Origin: Chitinophagales bacterium
GTDB lineage: Bacteria > Bacteroidota > Bacteroidia > Chitinophagales > Chitinophagaceae
DNA length: 64,000 bases
Direction: 5' to 3'
Assembly: GCA_017303855.1 (NCBI GenBank)
Contig: JAFLBL010000002.1
Coordinates: 310,001-374,000, forward strand
Under the pieces are notes generated by a model that was given only the letters and a program-made list of their open reading frames with translations, made no database searches and was not told where the DNA came from. Both the position numbers and the translations under genes were made by a program. Positions 51,778 to 64,000 of the stretch are shown here, piece by piece (within the stretch, counting starts at the first letter, position 1; every line of letters begins with the position of its first letter).

Positions 51778-54700
51778 ATGAAAAACTATGGAATCTTGTT
51801 GCTGCTGGTACTGGGTATGGTACCGGGCGCAACGGCCCAGCGGCAACGTCTGTCTTTTGATGCAGACTGGAAATTCGCATTCGGAAATGCGGGTGACCCT
51901 ACCCGTGATTTTAATTACAGTATCAGTACGATCTTTTCCAAATCGGGCGCCGCACCCGGAACCGCGATTGATCCGAAATTTGATGATAAAAAATGGCGTA
52001 GTCTCCATCTGCCGCATGACTGGGCTGTGGAACTGCCCTTTGTGCAGAAAGATAATTTTGATGTACAGTCGCACGGCTATAAACCCGTGGGTGGTCTCTT
52101 TCCCGAAACCAGTATTGGCTGGTACCGCAAACATTTCAGTATAGCCGCAGCCGACTCCGGTCAGCGGTTTCAATTGCAGTTTGACGGGGTATTCAGGGAC
52201 GCGCAGTTCTGGCTGAATGGTTTTTACCTGGGAAATAATAAAAGCGGGTATGTAGGGGTCAGTTATGATGTAACGGATTATATCAATTATAATAAAGAGA
52301 ATGTGCTGGTGGTTCGCGTAGATGCCACGCAGTACGAAGGCTGGTTTTATGAAGGCGCCGGAATATACAGGCATGTATGGCTGAATAAATACACACCGGC
52401 GCATATTGCAACAGATGGTGTATACGCCTGGTCTGAGCAGAAGGGGAATATGACCAGTATCACCGTTGAAACCACCTTGGAAAACCAGGGACTTTCTGCT
52501 GCACCGCTTTCAGTGAGCAGTTATATAACAGACCGTACCGGAAAGAAACTGGCCATCAGCAAAGCCGATGCGGTTCAGCTCCCGGTGAATGGCCGCCAGT
52601 CGGTCAAACAGTATTTGCTGGTGAAAGATGCCCGTAAATGGTCACTCGAGGATCCCTATCTATACCGGATCGTATCGGTGGTGAAGCAGAACGGCAAAGT
52701 GACCGACAGTGTACAACAACGGTTCGGTATCCGCACGATCGAAATAAAACCCAACGGCCTTTTTCTCAATGGTACTCATGTAAAAATAAAAGGCACCAAC
52801 AATCATCAGGACCATGCGGGGGTAGGCAGTGCCCTGCCGGATTACCTGCAGTATTACCGGATTGCTTTATTGAAAAAAATGGGCAGCAATGCCTATCGTA
52901 CCAGTCACCATGCACCCACTCCCGAACTGCTGGATGCCTGCGACAGTCTCGGTATGCTGGTGATGGATGAACAACGTCTGCTCAACAGCAGTCCTGAATA
53001 TATCGATCAGTTTGAACGGCTGATCAGGCGGGACAGGAACAGGGCTTCCGTGTTCATGTGGTCCATCGGCAACGAAGAAGGCTGGATACATACCAATAGC
53101 CTGGGCAAGCGCATTGCACAAACGTTAATCGCCAAACAAAAAGAGCTGGATCCCACCCGCACCTGTACCTATGCCGCGGATGTGGCCAATGTCTTCAACG
53201 GCGTGAATGAAGTGATTCCCGTGCGTTCCTTTAACTACCGGCAATACGCGGTGGCCGATTATCACCGTGATCATCCCGATCAGCCGATCATTGGCACGGA
53301 GATGGGCAGTACGGTAACCACCAGGGGACAATATGAAAAAGATTCTGTACGTGGTTATGTACCCGATCAGGATATTACTGCTCCCTGGTGGGCCAGTAAG
53401 GCCGAGGACTGGTGGAGCCTTGCGGGACCCAATGATTTCTGGCTCGGTGGATTTATCTGGACCGGTCTTGATTACCGCGGCGAGCCTACGCCTTTTCAAT
53501 GGCCCAATATCAACTCTCATTTCGGGGTGATGGATATGTGCGGTTTTCCCAAGAACATTTATTACTACTACAAAAGCTGGTGGACCGATGAGGATGTGCT
53601 GCATATTTCCCCGCATTGGAACTGGCGGGATAAGGCGCCCGGCTGGAACAAGAAACAGGGCGATCCGGTGGATGTATGGGTAAATACCAATGCCGATAAT
53701 GTGGAATTATTTGTCAACGGAAAAAGCCTGGGCAAAAAAGAGATGCCGCGTTTCAGTCACCTGAAGTGGACGGTGAACTATGAACCCGGTAAACTTGAAG
53801 CGGTGGCCTATAAAAAAGGAAAGCGGTTATACAGCAAGGTGGAAACCACCGGTCAGCCCGTAGAAGTGGTGGTAACCCCGTATAAGACCACGATACTGGC
53901 AGATGGTAAAGATGCCACGGTGCTGAATATAACGGTGCTTGACCGCGAGGGCAGGGAAGTACCGGATGCCGATAATCTTATAAGTTTTAGTATTGCAGGC
54001 GATGGAAAAATCATTGGTGCGGGCAATGGCGATCCGTCAAGCCATGAACCGGATAAATGTGCGGAGGGCAGGTGGCAGCGGACTTTATTCAATGGCAAAT
54101 GCCAGGTGATTGTACAGGCAGGTACTAAACCCGGTATGATTAAGTTTGACGCCACGGCAAAAGGATTATGGTCCGGTGGTACGGATATACAGACGATTGA
54201 TCCGGAAGAAGTGAAGAAAGTAACCGTGGACAAAACCTATCAGCTCAGCGGCGAACAGGCAAAGCGCAGGGAAGTGGGGAAAATGCTGGGAGCCGATATT
54301 TCTTTCTTACCTGAACTGGAAGCCAGGGGGATGAAGTTTACGGATAAAGGCGTGCAGAAAGACGCGGTGGAGATTTTGAAGCAGCATGGAATGAATTATG
54401 TGCGCTTGCGGATATTTCATAATCCGGCTGCCGATAGCGGGTATTCACCCGGCAAGGGATTCTGTGATCTGAAGAACACGTTGTCCATGGCCAAACGCGT
54501 AAAAGCCGCGGGGATGAAGCTCTTGCTGGATTTTCACTACAGTGATTACTGGGCGGATCCCGGTAAACAGTATAAGCCTGCTGACTGGAGGGGATTGGAT
54601 TTTGAAGCGTTAAAAAAGAAGGTCTTTGCGTATACAAAAGAAGTGATGGAAGCCCTGAAGGCGCAGGGCACCACACCCGATATGGTGCAGGTGGGTAATG

Positions 54701-55197
54701 AGATCAATCACGGCATCATCTGGCCGGAGGGGAATGTCGGTTATTTTGATCAGCTGGCACAACTGATCAATGCCGGTAATGCGGCGGTAAAAGCCGTGGA
54801 TCCCACGGTGATACTGATGCTGCATGTGGCGTTGGGCGGACAGAATGATGAATCGGTTTTCTTCATTGATAATATGGTGGCCCGCGGGGTGGCATTTGAC
54901 GTGATCGGGGAGTCTTACTATCCGAAATGGCATGGCACGCTGGAGGACCTGGAATATAACCTGAATGACCTGGCCCGGCGTTATGAGCGGGATGTGATTG
55001 TGGTGGAGTACTCGCACCGGAAAGAGGCCGTGAATAAGATCGCTTTTGAAGTAAAAGGCGGTCGCGGCAAAGGCACCTGTATCTGGGAGCCGCTGAGTAC
55101 CTGGGAGAAATTTTTTGACGAAAAAGGAAATGCAAACAACCTGCTGGAGCTTTATGATGTGATCAGCGGGCACTATTTACAAACAGCAACTAAATGA
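51778..55197 (+). CDS. GH2 beta-galactosidase fused to GH53 galactanase
   Basis: 1139 residues, secreted (signal LLLLVLGMVPGATA-Q). GH2 part: sugar-binding and Ig domains (about 25-320), barrel (about 320-610) with acid/base Glu433 in MWSIGNEEGW and nucleophile Glu508 in IIGTEMGST, then Ig-like C-terminal domains (about 620-820). A second enzyme follows without a frame break: a GH53 barrel (about 835-1139) with GADISFLPELEARGMKFTD, acid/base Glu975 in VQVGNEINHG and nucleophile Glu1077 in VVEYSH. Both active sites look intact. The GH53 half could cut galactan and the GH2 half trim galactose from ends. Its stop overlaps the galactokinase start (ATGA). Confidence 0.92.
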   Translation: MKNYGILLLLVLGMVPGATAQRQRLSFDADWKFAFGNAGDPTRDFNYSISTIFSKSGAAPGTAIDPKFDDKKWRSLHLPHDWAVELPFVQKDNFDVQSHGYKPVGGLFPETSIGWYRKHFSIAAADSGQRFQLQFDGVFRDAQFWLNGFYLGNNKSGYVGVSYDVTDYINYNKENVLVVRVDATQYEGWFYEGAGIYRHVWLNKYTPAHIATDGVYAWSEQKGNMTSITVETTLENQGLSAAPLSVSSYITDRTGKKLAISKADAVQLPVNGRQSVKQYLLVKDARKWSLEDPYLYRIVSVVKQNGKVTDSVQQRFGIRTIEIKPNGLFLNGTHVKIKGTNNHQDHAGVGSALPDYLQYYRIALLKKMGSNAYRTSHHAPTPELLDACDSLGMLVMDEQRLLNSSPEYIDQFERLIRRDRNRASVFMWSIGNEEGWIHTNSLGKRIAQTLIAKQKELDPTRTCTYAADVANVFNGVNEVIPVRSFNYRQYAVADYHRDHPDQPIIGTEMGSTVTTRGQYEKDSVRGYVPDQDITAPWWASKAEDWWSLAGPNDFWLGGFIWTGLDYRGEPTPFQWPNINSHFGVMDMCGFPKNIYYYYKSWWTDEDVLHISPHWNWRDKAPGWNKKQGDPVDVWVNTNADNVELFVNGKSLGKKEMPRFSHLKWTVNYEPGKLEAVAYKKGKRLYSKVETTGQPVEVVVTPYKTTILADGKDATVLNITVLDREGREVPDADNLISFSIAGDGKIIGAGNGDPSSHEPDKCAEGRWQRTLFNGKCQVIVQAGTKPGMIKFDATAKGLWSGGTDIQTIDPEEVKKVTVDKTYQLSGEQAKRREVGKMLGADISFLPELEARGMKFTDKGVQKDAVEILKQHGMNYVRLRIFHNPAADSGYSPGKGFCDLKNTLSMAKRVKAAGMKLLLDFHYSDYWADPGKQYKPADWRGLDFEALKKKVFAYTKEVMEALKAQGTTPDMVQVGNEINHGIIWPEGNVGYFDQLAQLINAGNAAVKAVDPTVILMLHVALGGQNDESVFFIDNMVARGVAFDVIGESYYPKWHGTLEDLEYNLNDLARRYERDVIVVEYSHRKEAVNKIAFEVKGGRGKGTCIWEPLSTWEKFFDEKGNANNLLELYDVISGHYLQTATK

Positions 55198-56351
55198 GCA
55201 GCATGGAAAGCGGATATCCTGTACCGGTAGAATTAGCACCCTATGTAAACAGCAACAGTATCGTGGTTCGTTCGCCGGGCCGTATCAACCTGATCGGCGA
55301 GCACCTGGATTATAACAGTGGTTTTGTATTACCCGCCGCTATAGATAAAGCGGTATATGTGGTGGTGGAGAAGCAGGACCCCCCTTTTTATTCACTGCAC
55401 TCCGTGGATTTCAATGAAACCGCAGACATACCTGTCGCGGACGTAAAGCCCGCATTTGGCCATTGGTACACGTATATTCTCGGTGTGGTGGCGCAGTTCA
55501 ATGCTACGGGTCGTTCCGTGCCACCGTTTAAGATGGCGGTATACGGAGATGTGCCGCTTGGTGCCGGTTTATCTTCATCCGCGGCGATAGAAAGTGCCGC
55601 CGCTTTCAGCATCAACGAACTTTTCGGATACGGATCCGATCGCCTGCAGCTGGTAAAAATGGCACAGCTGGCCGAGCATGAATATGCCGGGGTGAAATGC
55701 GGCATCATGGATATGTTTGCCAGTGTGTTTGGAAAAAAGGGGCAGGTGATCCGGCTCGACTGCCGTTCGCTTGAATACGCGTATTTTCCGCTTGATCTGC
55801 AGGGTTATGAAATTGTGCTGATTGATACACAGGTGAAGCATTCGCTCGCTTCTTCCGAGTACAATGTGCGCCGGGAGCAATGTGAGGCGGGTGTGGCGAT
55901 GATACAAAAGAAGTACCCGGCGGTACAGAGTCTCCGTGATGCCACTATGGCCATGGTCAATGAGTGTATTCCGCAGGACGATATCATTTATCTGCGTTGC
56001 AAATATGTGGTGGAAGAGATTGAACGGCTCGTGACCGGTTGTGCCGACCTGGAGCGGGGCGATGTGGCCGCCTTCGGCAGGAAAATGTACCGCACGCATG
56101 AAGGGCTGAGTAAGGAGTACGGGGTAAGCTGCAAGGAACTCGATTACCTTGCTGATTTCGTAGCTGCCCATCCCGAAGTTATTGGCGCCCGTATGATGGG
56201 TGGAGGCTTTGGCGGCTGTACCATCAACATAATAAAGAAAGAAGCCGTAGAGCCGCTGATTAATGAGCTGCTGCCGCTGTATAAGCGGGATATGGGATTA
56301 GAGTTGAAGTACTATCGGGTGAATATTGAAGAAGGGACGTCCCGGATTTAA
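55194..56351 (+). CDS. galK: Galactokinase
   Basis: 385 residues, starting in the stop of the GH2-GH53 gene (4-bp overlap, translational coupling likely). GHMP kinase marks: galactokinase signature PGRINLIGEHLDYNSGFVLP (about 25-44), ATP loop DVPLGAGLSSSAAIES (about 123-138) and MMGGGFGGCTINII near the C-terminus. It makes galactose 1-phosphate in the cytoplasm for the Leloir pathway, using galactose freed by the two preceding enzymes. No galT or galE is present in the window. Confidence 0.95.
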   Translation: MSSMESGYPVPVELAPYVNSNSIVVRSPGRINLIGEHLDYNSGFVLPAAIDKAVYVVVEKQDPPFYSLHSVDFNETADIPVADVKPAFGHWYTYILGVVAQFNATGRSVPPFKMAVYGDVPLGAGLSSSAAIESAAAFSINELFGYGSDRLQLVKMAQLAEHEYAGVKCGIMDMFASVFGKKGQVIRLDCRSLEYAYFPLDLQGYEIVLIDTQVKHSLASSEYNVRREQCEAGVAMIQKKYPAVQSLRDATMAMVNECIPQDDIIYLRCKYVVEEIERLVTGCADLERGDVAAFGRKMYRTHEGLSKEYGVSCKELDYLADFVAAHPEVIGARMMGGGFGGCTINIIKKEAVEPLINELLPLYKRDMGLELKYYRVNIEEGTSRI

Positions 56352-57786: not shown

Positions 57787-59007
57787 ATGGACAAAGTGCA
57801 ATTAAAGCCCATCTTTCATAAGGGACGGGAATGTATCGGCATTTATTATGCCATCTCTTTTACGATAAATGGCTTATTGAGAAGTAAAGCCGGTGCCAGC
57901 TGGAGTCAGACCCATAAATGCTGGTATGTGCCGCTGAGCCGTGAAGATTACAAAAAGGTTTGTTCAGTCCTGAAAGGAAGGGTGGAGCTGGATGAGCAGG
58001 AGTTGCGTAGGTATCTGGAGAAAAAGAAAACAGATAATGCGGTCAAACAGGAAGTTCCGGATCCGGTGCCGGTGAATGAGCCAATTGTAATTCAGCCTGT
58101 AAAAACCGGATCTGTTGAACCGGTTGTTCAGGTTCACCCCATTAACCAGGGTGTATTGCCTGCCCTGAAACAGGAATTGGTGCTGAGAGCCTACAGCTCC
58201 TCCACCATCAAGACATATATCAATGAAGTACGTGTATTTCTTGGTGCAATCGGTGATCATCCGGCGGCAACCTATACGACTCAGCAATTGCGTGATTACC
58301 TGCAGTATTGTTTTGAGCAGTTGAAATTATCTGAAAACACGTTACATAGCCGGATCAATGCGTTGAAGTTTTATTATGAGCAGGTCATAAAAAGGGAGAA
58401 GTTCTTCTGGGATATTCCGCGGCCGAAAAAGCCCATGCAGTTACCCAAGTTGCTCAATGAGGATGAGCTGGCCCGTTTATTCAATTCCATACAGAACAAA
58501 AAGCACAAGGCTATTTTATTCACCGCTTATAGTGCCGGTTTACGGGTAAGTGAGGTGGTAAATCTGAAGTTAGCGGATATAGACGGGAAACGGATGCAGA
58601 TCCATGTAAGGCATGCCAAGGGCAAAAAAGACCGGTATGTAAACCTGAGTCCGGTATTACTGGATATATTACGTCAATATGTGAAAATGGTAAGTCCGGC
58701 ACCTAAAGAATATCTGTTTGAATCGGAGCAGACCGGCAAGGCCTATCCGACCCGGACGGTACAGCAGATTTTCACCAATGGCAAAAAAAAGGCCGGTATC
58801 ATGAAAGAAGTCGGGATACATAGTTTACGGCACAGTTTTGCCACGCATTTGCTGGATAAAGGAACTGATATCCGGTATATAAAGGACCTGCTTGGTCATT
58901 TCGATATCAAAACCACGGAGCGATATCTGCATGTAAGTAAGAAGCAGTTAGTGAATGTGATCAGTCCCTTTGATGATTTGTGGAAGGGGCAAAATCTGGA
59001 ATGGTAG
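57787..59007 (+). CDS. Tyrosine site-specific recombinase with extra N-terminal domain
   Basis: 406 residues. Residues 1-70 form an extra domain (YYAISFTINGLLRSKAGASW, then WYVPLSREDYKKV), joined by a Val/Pro-rich linker (about 88-115) to the SAM-like core-binding domain (about 120-205) and the catalytic domain (about 215-406). The full active-site set is present: Arg253 (AGLRVSEV), Lys278 (HAKGKKDRY), His345 and Arg348 (HSLRHSFATH), His371 (LLGHFD) and Tyr380 (ERYLHVS). It breaks and rejoins DNA through a 3'-phosphotyrosine. The catalytic part is XerD/IntI-like but lacks the insertion typical of class 1 IntI before the HxxR box. It precedes higBA and the cassette-like module, so it may mobilise them. 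Confidence 0.93.
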   Translation: MDKVQLKPIFHKGRECIGIYYAISFTINGLLRSKAGASWSQTHKCWYVPLSREDYKKVCSVLKGRVELDEQELRRYLEKKKTDNAVKQEVPDPVPVNEPIVIQPVKTGSVEPVVQVHPINQGVLPALKQELVLRAYSSSTIKTYINEVRVFLGAIGDHPAATYTTQQLRDYLQYCFEQLKLSENTLHSRINALKFYYEQVIKREKFFWDIPRPKKPMQLPKLLNEDELARLFNSIQNKKHKAILFTAYSAGLRVSEVVNLKLADIDGKRMQIHVRHAKGKKDRYVNLSPVLLDILRQYVKMVSPAPKEYLFESEQTGKAYPTRTVQQIFTNGKKKAGIMKEVGIHSLRHSFATHLLDKGTDIRYIKDLLGHFDIKTTERYLHVSKKQLVNVISPFDDLWKGQNLEW

Positions 59008-59092: not shown

Positions 59093-59386
59093 GTGCGGGT
59101 TATAGCCAAAAAAACGCTACGGGATTTCTGGAGTCTTTATCCGGACTGTGAACAACAGCTCAAAGCCTGGTACCAGGAAGCGGAGGAAGCCAACTGGAAA
59201 GGGCCATACGATATTAAGCAGGATTATCCTGCTGCGTCCATTATCGGAGACAACAGAATTGTATTTAATATAAAGGGAAATCACTATCGCCTGGTTGTAC
59301 GGGTCAATTACAGTTTTCAAATGGTATGGATCCGTTTTATTGGCACACATAGGCAATATGACAAAATAGATGCTACAAAAATTTAA
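59093..59386 (+). CDS. higB: HigB-type toxin (RelE-fold mRNA interferase)
   Basis: 97 residues with a GTG start at 59093, which gives the family N-terminus MRVIAKKTLRDFW. Later marks are LKAWYQEAEEANWKGPYDIK, NRIVFNIKGNHYRLVVRVNY and FIGTHRQYDKIDA, typical of the HigB_toxin family (PF09907), which cleaves mRNA in or near the ribosome. The toxin gene comes first and the HTH antitoxin second, the order usual for higBA. Antitoxin starts 7 bp downstream. Confidence 0.9.
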   Translation: MRVIAKKTLRDFWSLYPDCEQQLKAWYQEAEEANWKGPYDIKQDYPAASIIGDNRIVFNIKGNHYRLVVRVNYSFQMVWIRFIGTHRQYDKIDATKI

Positions 59387-59392
59387 CTAAGG

Positions 59393-59749
59393 ATGACCAT
59401 TAAGCCGATCAAATCAAAAAAGGACTATCAGGCTGCACTTACCCGGCTTGATCAGATTTTTGATGCAAAGCCAGGAACGAAGGATGGTGATGAGCTGGAA
59501 ATTCTGGGCATTCTGATCGAAAAGTATGAGCAGGATCGATATCCTATTGATTTTCCCGATCCTATTGAGGCTATTAAATTCCGTATGGAGCAGCTTGGGT
59601 ATACCCAGAATGATCTGGCCAGGGTAGTGGGACTTAAAAGCAGGGCCAGTGAGATCCTTAACCGGAAAAGGAAATTGTCACTTGAAATGATCCGTCAGAT
59701 CCATCAGTCACTTGGCATACCGACAGATGTGCTGATTCAGTCGTATTAA
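59393..59749 (+). CDS. higA: HigA-type antitoxin (XRE family)
   Basis: 118 residues. N-terminal toxin-facing part (KSKKDYQAALTRLDQIFDAK) followed by an XRE HTH (about 62-112: AIKFRMEQLGYTQNDLARVV, GLKSRASEILNRKRKLSLEM). HigA neutralises HigB and, with it, represses the operon through a palindrome; the one at 59048-59062 fits. A terminator follows. Confidence 0.9.
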   Translation: MTIKPIKSKKDYQAALTRLDQIFDAKPGTKDGDELEILGILIEKYEQDRYPIDFPDPIEAIKFRMEQLGYTQNDLARVVGLKSRASEILNRKRKLSLEMIRQIHQSLGIPTDVLIQSY

Positions 59750-59791: not shown

Positions 59792-59823
59792 TATCCCTTT
59801 GATTCCCAATAGGGATATTTTTT
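59792..59823 (+). terminator. Intrinsic terminator of higBA
   Basis: TATCCCT (59792-59798) pairs with AGGGATA (59811-59817), 12-base loop, then six Ts (59818-59823). It lies 42 bp past the higA stop. Confidence 0.6.
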
Positions 59824-59854
59824 AAACCCAGCGCGTAATTGCATAAATTTACGT

Positions 59855-59867
59855 GTTAGCAGTAAGC
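59855..59867 (+). mobile_element. Left core site of the gene cassette
   Basis: GTTAGCAGTAAGC. Its reverse complement matches the inverse core at 62208-62220 in 12 of 13 positions. A TAAACCCAGC block 32 bp upstream (59823-59832) recurs before the right core at 62309-62318. No matching left arm was found, so it is a half-site, as expected for an attI-like site or the remnant of an earlier attC. Confidence 0.5.
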
Positions 59868-59972
59868 TTAAACCGACAATCCGTAAAAAGAATACAAAGA
59901 ACCCGAATTTGTATTATCTGACAGATGAACTAAATTGACAACTTTGCACCTTAATTTTAAATTCATAAAAAA

Positions 59973-60788
59973 ATGAACAAGACAATTTTAATTACAGGTG
60001 CAAGTAGTGGTATAGGAAAAGAAACTGCAAAATTATTTCAGTCAAAGGGTTGGAATGTAATCGCTACGATGCGAAATCCAGAAAACGAAACAGAATTAAG
60101 TCAATTAGACAATGTTTTAGTTGCCAGACTTGATGTTTTAGATGTGGATTCTATTCAAAAAGCATTTAAGGACGGAATTCAAAAATTTGGAAATGTTGAC
60201 GTATTGCTTAATAATGCAGGTTATGGTGCTTATGGACCATTAGAAGCATTTAGCAGGGACAAAATTTTACGCCAATTCAACACTAATGTTATTGGGCTTT
60301 TAGATGTTACCCAAACCGTTTTACCACATTTTAGACAAAACAAAAAGGGAATAATTATCAACATTTCGTCTATTGGTGGCAAAATGACTTTTCCATTAGG
60401 TTCGTTGTATCACGGGACAAAATTTGCAGTTGAAGGTATTTCCGAATCACTCAACTATGAAGTAGAGCAATTTGGTGGACAAGTAAAAATTGTAGAACCA
60501 GGTATGATAGCGACTGATTTTGCAGGCAGGTCATTCGATTTCAGCAATGATGAAAATATGTCTGAATACCAAAACATTGTAGGTGCATTGATGACAGCAA
60601 TGCCTACAATGGCACAAAATGCGTCACCTGCAAGTATTGTTGCAGAAGTAATTTTTGAAGCGGCTACTGATGGCAAAAACCAATTGCGATATACAGCCGG
60701 TGAAGATGCAAAAATGCTTATTGCAAACCGTCAACAATATGATGACGCTACATTTATAGGTGGTATTAAATCACAATTTGGACTGTAA
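59973..60788 (+). CDS. Short-chain dehydrogenase/reductase (SDR)
   Basis: 271 residues, classical SDR length. The NAD(P)-binding TGASSGIGKE is at 8-17, NNAGYG near 82, catalytic Ser in INISSIGG and Tyr-x3-Lys as YHGTK near 152. It reduces or oxidises an unknown carbonyl or alcohol compound with NAD(P). Codon use is much more AT-rich than in the sugar loci, which suggests transfer. First of three genes in the cassette-like module, with an AraC regulator that probably controls it. Its own promoter is weak (CAACTTTG at 59939-59946). Confidence 0.92.
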   Translation: MNKTILITGASSGIGKETAKLFQSKGWNVIATMRNPENETELSQLDNVLVARLDVLDVDSIQKAFKDGIQKFGNVDVLLNNAGYGAYGPLEAFSRDKILRQFNTNVIGLLDVTQTVLPHFRQNKKGIIINISSIGGKMTFPLGSLYHGTKFAVEGISESLNYEVEQFGGQVKIVEPGMIATDFAGRSFDFSNDENMSEYQNIVGALMTAMPTMAQNASPASIVAEVIFEAATDGKNQLRYTAGEDAKMLIANRQQYDDATFIGGIKSQFGL

Positions 60789-60800
60789 AACATTGTAAAT

Positions 60801-61298
60801 ATGAATCCTGTTGTAAAATATTTTAATGGAGAAAAAGCCGAAAGCTATATTTTCATACTAATAGGAGTCATTGCTTTGGCAATGGCTCTCTATTTCATTT
60901 TTGCTTTGAAAACCTCTTTTTGGAAAGGTGTTGCCATACCTTTTATTATTGTTGCTTTATTAGAGTTTATAGTCGGTTATACCATAGTTATCAGAAGCCC
61001 AAAAGACATTGCACGTGTTGAAACTTTTATTCAAAAAGAATCCCAAAGTGTAAAAACAATTGAAATTCCTCGAATGGAAAAAGTATTGAGCAATTTTGTG
61101 ATTTATAGATATGTAGAAATTGCATTAATCATTTTAGGCATTGTATTGATGTATAGTTCTATGAATGACACATTTTGGAGAGGAATTGGACTTGGTTTAT
61201 TTATCCAAGCCAGTATTGTTTTGTGTTTAGATTTTTTTGCTGAAAGACGAGGGCATATTTATATTGTATATTTACAAGAATTAGTTGAAAAAATATGA
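60801..61298 (+). CDS. Four-helix inner-membrane protein of unknown function
   Basis: 165 residues with four hydrophobic segments: about 16-36 (YIFILIGVIALAMALYFIFA), 43-64 (GVAIPFIIVALLEFIVGYTI), 100-121 (RYVEIALIILGIVLMYSS) and 127-146 (GIGLGLFIQASIVLCLDF). The segments form two similar halves (TSFWKGVAIP and DTFWRGIGLG start the second helix of each), so it may be an internal duplication. No family recognised. It lies 12 bp after the SDR gene and overlaps the AraC gene by 4 bp. Confidence 0.8.
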   Translation: MNPVVKYFNGEKAESYIFILIGVIALAMALYFIFALKTSFWKGVAIPFIIVALLEFIVGYTIVIRSPKDIARVETFIQKESQSVKTIEIPRMEKVLSNFVIYRYVEIALIILGIVLMYSSMNDTFWRGIGLGLFIQASIVLCLDFFAERRGHIYIVYLQELVEKI

Positions 61299-62203
61299 GC
61301 GAAATAATACAACTTCAAAGCATTGCCGACTTACATAAATTATTTATTTTAGGGAATAGTCAACACCCATTAGTGGCTGTTTTGGATTTTAGTAAAGTTA
61401 CTGAGCAAGTAGAGCAGAATTCTAAAATCACGACCGACTTCTATTCTATTATGTTCAAGAACTATTGCAAGAACCATATTAAATATGGTAGAAAAACCAT
61501 AGATTTTCAAGACGGAAACCTAATTTGTATAGCACCCAATCAAACAATTGAAATAGACAATGAAATAGAAGAAAGAGAAGATAAAATGGGTTGGGGTTTG
61601 TTTTTTCACCCTGATTTAATTCGTTCTACAACACTAAATCAAAAAATTAAAGAATATAGTTTTTTTCAATACGAAGTTTCAGAAGCCCTTCATTTATCAG
61701 ACAAAGAAAAGAATATTTTATTGGAATGTGTTCAAAAAATCCAAACCGAACTACAAGAAAATATTGATGTGCATAGCCAATACATAATTGTTTCAACGAT
61801 AGAATTATTATTAAACTATTGTTCAAGATTTTATGGCAGACAATTGATAACAAGAAGCCAAAGCAACAAGTCTATAATATCGCAAATAGAAAACCTATTA
61901 ACTCAATATTTTGCTGACAACAAAATAAATGAACAAGGCTTACCAACTGTAAAATATTTAGCAAATAAAGTTCATTTATCACCAAGCTATTTGAGTGATT
62001 TACTAAAAAAAGAAACGGGTAAAAACGCACAAGAACATATTCATTTCTATCTTATTGAGGAAGCAAAGAATTTACTTTTGAATTCAGAAAAGAACATTAA
62101 TGAAATTGCCTTTGATTTAGGATTTGAATATCCGCAATACTTTAATAAACTATTCAAGAAAAAAACAGGTAAAACACCAATGGAATATAGGAACTTGAAT
62201 TAA
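61295..62203 (+). CDS. AraC-family transcriptional regulator
   Basis: 302 residues. The N-terminal ligand domain (about 20-180) is cupin-like. The C-terminal AraC double HTH (about 200-302) has LPTVKYLANKVHLSPSYLSD, LLKKETGKNAQEHIHFYLIE, INEIAFDLGFEYPQYFNKLF and KKKTGKTPMEYRNL, the family signature. It should control the SDR-membrane operon with which it overlaps by 4 bp; the ligand is unknown. AT-rich. Confidence 0.92.
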   Translation: MSEIIQLQSIADLHKLFILGNSQHPLVAVLDFSKVTEQVEQNSKITTDFYSIMFKNYCKNHIKYGRKTIDFQDGNLICIAPNQTIEIDNEIEEREDKMGWGLFFHPDLIRSTTLNQKIKEYSFFQYEVSEALHLSDKEKNILLECVQKIQTELQENIDVHSQYIIVSTIELLLNYCSRFYGRQLITRSQSNKSIISQIENLLTQYFADNKINEQGLPTVKYLANKVHLSPSYLSDLLKKETGKNAQEHIHFYLIEEAKNLLLNSEKNINEIAFDLGFEYPQYFNKLFKKKTGKTPMEYRNLN

Positions 62204-62207
62204 TAAA

Positions 62208-62344
62208 GCCTACTGCTAACAGGGGTTTTGCAAAAGCTGGGCTTCAGTGCTAAATTGAACATTTGTGCTTCTATTTGGCATTTGCACTAACCTGAACATT
62301 TGTACTTCTAAACCCAGCCTTCGCAAAGCCCCAAAACGTTAGGC
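62208..62344 (+). mobile_element. attC-like structured recombination site
   Basis: 137 bp, within the 57-141 bp range of integron attC sites. The left arm has inverse core GCCTACTGCTAAC (62208-62220), GGGG (62222-62225), TTTGC (62227-62231) and GCTGGG (62236-62241). The right arm has CCCAGC (62313-62318), GCAAA (62323-62327), CCCC (62329-62332) and the core GTTAGGC (62338-62344, fits GTTRRRY). They fold into one imperfect hairpin. The inverse core departs from RYYYAAC, so this is attC-like rather than canonical. Inside the loop, GAACATTTGT-CTTCTA words repeat (62257-62272, 62294-62310). Confidence 0.55.
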
Positions 62345-62414
62345 GTAATGCTCCGAGCGACCGTGCTAAATTCAACATTTTGACAAAAACGGACAGAGAA
62401 CATAATAAAATTTG

Positions 62415-62422
62415 TAAATTTG
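62415..62422 (+). promoter_or_regulatory. Possible promoter of the methyltransferase gene
   Basis: TAAATTTG matches TAnnTTTG exactly but lies only 5 bp ahead of the ATG at 62427, so the transcript would be leaderless. No -33 element is seen at the right distance. Confidence 0.35.
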
Positions 62423-62426
62423 CGGA

Positions 62427-63629
62427 ATGGAAAACATTGTATCAGAACCAGTAGAAACATATAACCAAATCGGACTTGGGTTGACTAATTATGTTGATAC
62501 AAGAAAACTATCACCAATTTTGAAATGGGCAGGTGGAAAAGAACAAGAATTAAAATATATTCTTCCCAATTTACCACAAGAAAAATTTACAGATTACTAT
62601 GAACCTTTTGTTGGCGGAGGAGCGGTTTATACTGCAATACAAGCCGACAAATATTTTATAAATGACAAATCAGATGAATTAATTTTACTCTATCGAAGTT
62701 TGACGAATGAAGATAGAAATGTGTTTTTTCAAGCAACAAAAGAAATTATACATAATTGGGATTTATTAAGTTTTGTAACAAAACAAAACTCAATTTTTTT
62801 TATAAATACATACAAAAGTTTTTCAGAAAATAAGATTACAGAAACAAAATTAAAAGACATTCTTTTTGAGTTTATTCTTAAAAATGCAGAACAATTTAAT
62901 GGAATGTTCTCTACAATTTTTAATTTCAATATTGAAAACTTCATAAAAGAAATAAAAGTAAATCTTATTCGCAAAATTAAGCGAATGAAAGAGTTAGAAA
63001 TATTAAAATCCAAACTGCCAGATTCTGATATTTTAGACAATATTGAAACAGCTTTTAAAAGTGCGTTTTATATGCACTTTCGACACATTTACAATAATAC
63101 AGAAAAGTATAATATTCAAAATGCTTTTAAATCGGCAATATTCTTATTTATAAGAAATTTTGCTTACAGTGGAATGTTTCGTTATAATTCAAGTGGAGAA
63201 TTTAATGTTCCTTATGGTGGAATTGCATACAATAATAAAAATTATAGTAAAAAAGTTGAATATTTAGAAACTCAAGAATTAAAATCCTTACTTGACAACA
63301 CAATAATAGAAAACGAAGATTTTGAACGTTTTTTTGAACTTCACAAGCCGACAAAGAATGATTTTATTTTTCTTGACCCACCATATGATAGTGAATTTAG
63401 TACATATGCGAAAAATGAATTTACAAGAAAAGACCAAGAAAGATTAGCAAACTATCTAATAAACAATTGCAAAGCAAAATGGATGATGATAATTAAAAAT
63501 ACTGATTTCATTTTTGAATTATACAATGACAAAGGACTAAACATTCAATCATTTGAAAAAACTTATTTGGTTAGCTTTATGAATAGAAACGATAAAAATG
63601 TAGAACACCTTTTAATTACAAATTACTAA
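62427..63629 (+). CDS. D12-class DNA adenine methyltransferase
   Basis: 400 residues, longer than Dam (about 280) owing to an insertion near 95-215. Motif I with the AdoMet pocket is LSPILKWAGGKEQELKY then YYEPFVGGGAVY (about 27-70), and motif IV is DFIFLDPPYDSEF near 305 with the catalytic DPPY. It methylates the N6 of adenine in a short, possibly GATC-like, site; target not predictable. Extremely AT-rich relative to the window. Starts a new unit after the attC-like site. Followed by a winged-helix gene 6 bp later, which may be a partner nuclease. Confidence 0.92.
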   Translation: MENIVSEPVETYNQIGLGLTNYVDTRKLSPILKWAGGKEQELKYILPNLPQEKFTDYYEPFVGGGAVYTAIQADKYFINDKSDELILLYRSLTNEDRNVFFQATKEIIHNWDLLSFVTKQNSIFFINTYKSFSENKITETKLKDILFEFILKNAEQFNGMFSTIFNFNIENFIKEIKVNLIRKIKRMKELEILKSKLPDSDILDNIETAFKSAFYMHFRHIYNNTEKYNIQNAFKSAIFLFIRNFAYSGMFRYNSSGEFNVPYGGIAYNNKNYSKKVEYLETQELKSLLDNTIIENEDFERFFELHKPTKNDFIFLDPPYDSEFSTYAKNEFTRKDQERLANYLINNCKAKWMMIIKNTDFIFELYNDKGLNIQSFEKTYLVSFMNRNDKNVEHLLITNY

Positions 63630-63635
63630 ATAATA

Positions 63636-64000
63636 ATGGCAGCACATACAGAAGCACAGATAAGACGAGCAATTAAACCATTATTAACCGTATATGGTGA
63701 ATTAAACACTTCAGAAGTAAAAAACCTTTTACATACAGTTTTAGAATTTAGTGAAGAGGATATGTTACCTTCACCAACAAGAAATGAACCTCGTATCATT
63801 CAACGTATAGGTAATATTGCTTCTCACCAAACAGAAACAGTAAAATTTTATGATGAAGGCTTTATAGTTGATAAAAATCATTCACCAGCTAAATTTGCTT
63901 TAATTAACCCTATTTCACAAGTTGTTATTCAACCTGCGGAAGTAACAACAATAAAAGAAAAAACGAGACGCTTTATTGCTCGTAAAGTTGATTGGGAAAA
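63636..64000 (+). CDS. Winged-helix protein, N-terminal part (runs off window)
   Basis: The frame is open from the ATG at 63636 to the window edge (121 complete codons, no stop). The start MAAHTEAQIRRAIKPLLTVY, followed by SEVKNLLHTVLEFSEEDMLP and a RIIQRIGNIASHQ segment, resembles the Mrr-type N-terminal winged helix that precedes nuclease or other DNA-acting domains in restriction systems. The continuation is outside the window. It is 6 bp behind the adenine methyltransferase, so a restriction partner is a reasonable but unproven reading. Composition as AT-rich as its neighbour. Confidence 0.7.
   Translation, partial: MAAHTEAQIRRAIKPLLTVYGELNTSEVKNLLHTVLEFSEEDMLPSPTRNEPRIIQRIGNIASHQTETVKFYDEGFIVDKNHSPAKFALINPISQVVIQPAEVTTIKEKTRRFIARKVDWE

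Follow-up and report, generated by a model that had tools for sequence, protein, structure and literature searches.

A cassette array with integron-like features beside a tyrosine recombinase lacking the IntI insertion in Bacteroidota

Integrons are regarded as mainly proteobacterial. Sedentary chromosomal integrons, such as those of Vibrio, combine the integrase IntI with an attI site and attC sites. The I2 helix is regarded as the innovation behind single-strand cassette recombination; it has been held to confer recombination of single strands, to be necessary for cassette capture and to occur in no other protein (PMC7790495). In the case of CTXphi, a single-strand hairpin is used with XerC, a recombinase without I2 (PMC7790495). 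Few complete integrons have been detected in Bacteroidetes using IntegronFinder 2.0, for instance in Salinibacter (PMC9024848). For the present comparison, an integron is judged by an IntI with the I2-bearing insertion, an attI beside the recombinase, co-oriented and mostly single-gene cassettes, AAC/GTT-ended palindromes of kept structure but variable sequence, and cassette ends complementary to each other but not to their neighbours.

The DNA analysed here, referred to as the window, is a stretch of 64,000 nt from Chitinophagales bacterium GCA_017303855.1 (contig JAFLBL010000002.1, positions 310,001-374,000, also given as G000:C12:310001-374000), and the contig extends beyond it to 382762. 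A 1139-aa fusion of GH2 beta-galactosidase and GH53 galactanase is encoded at 51778-55197, followed directly by a galactokinase (55194-56351). A preliminary description of the window flagged a three-gene unit as bounded like an integron gene cassette. Judging from sequence evidence, this is very probably a system of integron-like cassette capture with the flagged unit as the first cassette of its array (Table 1). The three ORFs of the unit are all co-oriented, and no Pfam match was obtained for its small protein.

The core sequences GTTAGCAGTAAGC at 59855, GCCTACTGCTAAC at 62208 and GTTAGGCGTAATG at 62338 are present where they had been placed, and the inverse core is complementary to its own left core at 12 of 13 positions, against 8 of 13 for the next core, as had been claimed. 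In the whole window, the left core is the only partner of the inverse core at 12 or more of the 13 positions (chance expectation 0.08, both strands). The boundary logic, the identity of the unit as a cassette and the break at G/TT each withstood testing. The closing site, described earlier as about 137 nt long, measures 123 nt from AAC to GTT and reaches that length with its core arms; it scores 137.1 bits with covariance model R1 and folds on both strands, the bottom strand better after the cassette ends are joined. It had also been predicted that the next site, past the window, would carry an inverse core close to GCATTACGCCTAAC, and the site found there carries GCACTACGCCTAAC, a match at 13 of 14 positions. 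The left boundary does contain a core, but it is an attI-like site common to such arrays and not a second attC. The block TAAACCCAGC is indeed present twice, at 59823 and at 62309, but does not characterise such sites in general; since it is absent from the attI regions of other arrays, its sharing is probably coincidental, and it was rejected as a component of attI. Two other genomes carry the three genes of cassette 1 with 80-85% identity but without R1 sites, so that the cassette looks like a captured operon.

Table 1. Features of the recombinase locus and its putative cassettes (window coordinates unless a contig is named).
Feature	Position	Strand	Evidence or remark
Tyrosine recombinase, proposed cassette integrase, 406 aa	57787..59007	+	Pfam Phage_integrase 1.7e-35
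HigB-type toxin (PD-Lambda-2_A-like)	59093..59386	+	Pfam HigB_toxin 2e-33; PADLOC PD-Lambda-2_A 1.1e-41
HigA-type antitoxin (PD-Lambda-2_B-like)	59393..59749	+	HTH_3; PADLOC PD-Lambda-2_B 6e-45
attI-like site, TTGCATAAATTTACGT followed by GTT (also given as AATTGCATAAATTTACGT followed by GTT)	59839..59857	+	Recombinase-proximal array end
Cassette 1	59856..62338	+	G/TT break 59855/59856 to G of next core; 9/9 + 4/4 arm positions complementary
Short-chain dehydrogenase (SDR), cassette 1	59973..60788	+	Pfam adh_short 2.4e-46
Small protein with hydrophobic stretches, cassette 1	60801..61298	+	ORF list
AraC-family regulator, cassette 1	61295..62203	+	HTH_18 6.4e-22
attC-like site 1	62204..62354	+	Inverse-core arm to 62217, AAC 62218-62220, hairpin, GTT 62338-62340, core arm
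Cassette 2	62339..64000 in window, on to ~G000:C12:374551 (551 bases beyond)	+	Closing site with 13/14 of predicted inverse core
DNA methyltransferase, cassette 2	62427-63629	+	MethyltransfD12 1.7e-33
NOV_C restriction-like protein, cassette 2	63636-(64416)	+	NOV_C 4.2e-18
Closing site of cassette 2	G000:C12:374423-374560		~420 bases past window end; inverse core GCACTACGCCTAAC

Outside the cassettes, between the recombinase and attI, a HigBA pair (59093-59749) matches PD-Lambda-2 anti-phage models. The attI consensus, TTGCGTATATTTAnGA followed by GTT, stands before the first core of such arrays, usually 90-400 bp from the recombinase gene; in the window this distance is 847 bp because the HigBA pair lies between. 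The motif is fitted at a mean of 8.8 of 13 positions at 27 array heads versus 2.0 at array-internal cores, with few misfits. The criterion of a putative attI beside the recombinase is met, the motif being shared by most of the 27 arrays and its function in joining being inferred.

Beyond cassette 2, the array continues with a 5.6-kb unit that has matching ends (9/9 positions) and encodes a secreted repeat protein of 1525 aa, and then with shorter units, one of them with a PIN protein (ends 9/9 and 4/4). A second recombinase, 54% identical to that of the window, lies on contig C23 (L097 9672-13618) with its own attI-like site and an array of three units; where these could be closed, their ends pair at 9/9 across sites of 185-187 nt. 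The genome therefore carries two such systems, together with a longer class of sites that is mostly missed by R1. The locus is not an isolated case: it is one of two arrays in its genome and, as far as predicted sites tell, such arrays are widespread, occurring in about half of the sampled Bacteroidota genomes.

The search for the site elsewhere that had been proposed yielded a single further clear copy in this genome by plain DNA match and ~20 more in relatives by BLAST. Plain matching is too weak to find the sites, for which a covariance model was required, and many were then recovered using R1. They are imperfect palindromes of ~124 nt, also ~190 nt, that close each cassette and are mostly 70-75% alike. 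The stem derived from 19 sites reads AAC-A-NNNG-TTTNGC..//..GCNAAGCNNN-AAAAC-GTT, with 84.6% of cells paired and changes on both sides in 13 of 21 pairs, and its covariation score is 0.318 compared with 0.102 for shuffled and at most 0.06 for slid alignments. Of 299 genomes from the order, 177 contain R1 sites (89/136 genera), as do 142 of 296 from the phylum (82/139 genera), whereas none were detected in 11 named non-Bacteroidota genomes, a small control. Some genomes contain dense arrays, for example ~40 sites in 95 kb on contig 8 of G306. The criterion of AAC/GTT-ended palindromes is met on this evidence, the full RYYYAAC/GTTRRRY being only partly kept.

Pairing of the cassette ends, first seen on 106 stretches, was evaluated on 163 stretches between consecutive sites. 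At least five of six variable positions were complementary between a cassette's own core and inverse core in 82% of them; the control values are 9.3% for the two ends of a single site and 9.6% for pairings with different cassettes from the same array. Core positions 12-15 also match the own end (68-74% vs about 30-50%), and 161 of 163 cores have A at position 11, which is complementary in 1%. The remaining 18% without end pairing are explained partly by long sites missed by R1 and by loss of sites. Taking the longest ORF of each cassette, 148 of 151 long ORFs run along the array and three run opposite, and the median cassette is 906 bp. On these counts, complementarity to the own but not the neighbouring end, as expected for G/TT recombination, and co-orientation of mostly single-gene cassettes are both met as integron criteria.

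Transfer of a cassette between families can be read from one case. A 984-bp cassette is 98.4% identical in a genome of the window's family (G288) and one of another family (G279), with unrelated neighbours; over the 300 bp preceding the GTT core the two genomes share 24-38% identity, which rises to 98% once the core is reached, the left break falling exactly at GTT. The shared right end stops at AACAGCGG because G288 lost the hairpin. A third genome (G289) has the first 500 bp of this cassette at 92%, again starting at the core. Recombination itself remains inferred, and no pair of strains with and without a cassette at one place supports it. Near position 931255 of G288:C1 (L223), an attC-like hairpin has been lost, apparently by deletion between AGCGG repeats, and two cassettes are fused. 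At 919-921 kb of the same contig (L082), three tandem 667-bp cassettes are 96-98% identical.

The following mechanism is proposed. A tyrosine recombinase related to Xer and IntI but devoid of the IntI insertion, adjoining an attI-like site, would act on circular gene cassettes that each bear one attC-like imperfect palindrome of ~124-190 nt. The site would fold as single-stranded DNA, probably the bottom strand, with an outer arm made of the joined cassette ends (core positions 4-15, with the conserved mismatch at 11) and an inner arm made of the site. The recombinase would cut at G/TT and join the cassette at attI, and older cassettes would be pushed away. Since the outer arm is split between the core of the next cassette and the own inverse core, complementarity would appear with the own end but not the next. 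The parts, their order and polarity, the paired ends, the covariation, the inter-family transfer and the break at the core are established by sequence comparison; the recombinase as actor, bottom-strand chemistry on single strands and circular intermediates are inferred, with neither experiments nor circle reads.

The bottom strand is the more stable one in 135 of 163 joined cassettes (mean -30.9 vs -27.9 kcal/mol, p=1e-21), a small bias of ~3 kcal/mol. In our reading, its better folding stems from conserved mismatches that are A-C on the top strand but pair as T-G on the bottom strand. Excision and integration on the folded bottom strand are inferred with this energy bias as sole support. That the arms vary in sequence yet stay paired speaks for a folded strand as the form that is recognised. 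Tyrosine recombinases normally use duplex DNA, and the palindromes might instead be paired binding sites in double-stranded DNA, with the same cassette logic carried out through two ordinary strand exchanges of the Xer/dif or Cre/lox kind; the Xer-like recombinase (XerA 4a8e, Z 23.5) without I2 insertion is compatible with this. Such a mode is considered rather unlikely in view of arm sequences that are free to vary while pairing alone is kept, which a reader of duplex sequence would not need, of attI and attC having GTT alone in common, and of one strand being favoured by conserved asymmetric mismatches. With some reservation, we favour the view that hairpin cassette capture arose or persists without I2, in an integron lineage that spans the phylum Bacteroidota. 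There, a different region of the recombinase, perhaps a HARP/XPB-like N-terminal domain, would recognise the folded site and prevent the second exchange of strands. This domain (residues 1-85, window 57787-58041; pLDDT 90) only weakly resembles DUF5710 (1.6e-5) and DNA-binding domains of XPB/HARP type (XPB, VIA Z 6.8; HARP, Foldseek E 0.23 and Pfam E 0.1), which is a lead only.

Homologues of the window recombinase, 35-61% identical, head the fetched arrays. Scanning species genomes turned up 80 named recombinase loci (L117-L196), including Chitinophagaceae, Flavobacterium, Kaistella, Arundinibacter, Runella, Algoriphagus, Winogradskyella and others. About 30 of the 80 have sites on the expected side, with the array leading away from the recombinase gene, which is co-oriented with or divergent from its array. 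At 45 of the 80 loci the contig ends no more than 3 kb downstream of the recombinase, but at only 7 does it end as close upstream, so that arrays seem to break assemblies. No site was found at seven loci whose flanks are long enough in both directions. Genomes outside Bacteroidota with members of the recombinase family lack R1 sites, so that cassettes cannot be inferred from the enzyme core by itself, and plasmid and phage collections contain distant relatives only. The neighbouring recombinase could also be incidental, with cassettes moved in trans by another enzyme such as chromosomal XerC/D, or through homologous recombination of one site with another, as single sites away from both recombinases of this genome might suggest. 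This is improbable, because array heads repeatedly adjoin a homologue and the shared attI motif 90-400 bp away, sites that are mostly 70-75% alike are poor substrates for homologous recombination, and the clustering of array-linked recombinases on the tree exceeds that under shuffled labels.

The assignment of the window recombinase to IntI also fails. In accordance with the preliminary description, which placed a recombinase without the IntI insertion 0.85 kb upstream and remarked on a different type of system, it has 18 residues where IntI4 has 58, and the remark held when tested. The profile of integron integrases (TIGR02249) gives 184 bits in two pieces, below the cut-off of 265, and the curated XerC and XerD cut-offs are not reached either (178 and 167 bits vs 335 and 330). 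The protein consists of the N-terminal extra domain, a SAM-like core-binding domain and a catalytic domain. R253, K278, H345, R348, H371 and Y380, which by analogy with the family we take to be the catalytic residues, are invariant in the aligned homologue set. Motif spacing is 58-63 residues in array-linked homologues with both motifs found, against ~100 in true IntI, and the AF2 model (pLDDT 86.5), for which IntI4 and XerA are the best matches, lacks a helix at 302-321. By sequence and model, the criterion of an IntI with the I2-bearing insertion is thus not met. In the tree, the window recombinase and 28 relatives, 22 of them with arrays, form a 99/96 group. True IntI was found in one of 299 order genomes, against 177 with R1 sites, and R1 found no site in that one genome (G052). 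A classical integron with a divergent IntI would agree with the attI/attC layout, with IntI4 (2a3v) as the closest solved fold by Foldseek and with a similar SP(L/F)D-type C-terminus. It is very improbable given the score under the cut-off, the missing ~40 residues, the separate 100/100 branch formed by IntI1 and the sole true IntI of the order, and the absence of any R1 site in a class 1 integron array. The array is most probably run by a recombinase other than the standard integron integrase; it very probably works like an integron, its activity being inferred, without being a member of the IntI integrons. That the palindromes are merely RNA hairpins (terminators or regulatory RNAs) without a role in mobility, although they fold stably directly 3' of genes, is practically ruled out, being already contradicted by the whole-cassette end pairing and the G288/G279 break at the core, unable to account for attI, and without an Rfam match in the array parts (a Flavo-1 match in L126 lies elsewhere), for which reason a known RNA family was also rejected.

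No description of such a system was found in a literature search; an earlier one is not excluded, as preprints and most subscription papers were outside its coverage. A cassette system with I2-less recombinases in about half of the sampled Bacteroidota would make the I2 requirement testable by comparison. It would also reveal a large unseen gene-sharing network, with a restriction-modification-like pair, an SDR operon and a PIN protein as cargo here, and its arrays may explain some assembly breaks in Bacteroidota.

Compared with the known systems, these arrays resemble sedentary chromosomal integrons in having a recombinase at one end, an attI-like site and co-oriented short cassettes, as well as variable imperfect palindromes with AAC...GTT ends, the G/TT break and large arrays. 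They differ in the recombinase, which is not IntI and lacks the I2-bearing insertion, in the longer outer arms (~15 positions, conserved mismatch at 11) with a 1/5-nt spacer, in the attI and in the phylum, Bacteroidota. The complete integrons of Bacteroidetes such as Salinibacter belong to the same phylum-level group, but comprise IntI and classical attC, whereas IntI is missing from nearly all site-bearing genomes here. XerA/XerC-type recombinases (4a8e, 5hxy) share the sequence and fold of the catalytic core; the window protein and most array-linked homologues have an extra N-terminal domain, and attI and cassette arrays take the place of a single dif site. IMEX elements and CTXphi likewise have a hairpin used by a recombinase without I2, but rely on the host Xer at dif, while a dedicated recombinase, an attI and multi-cassette arrays are found here.
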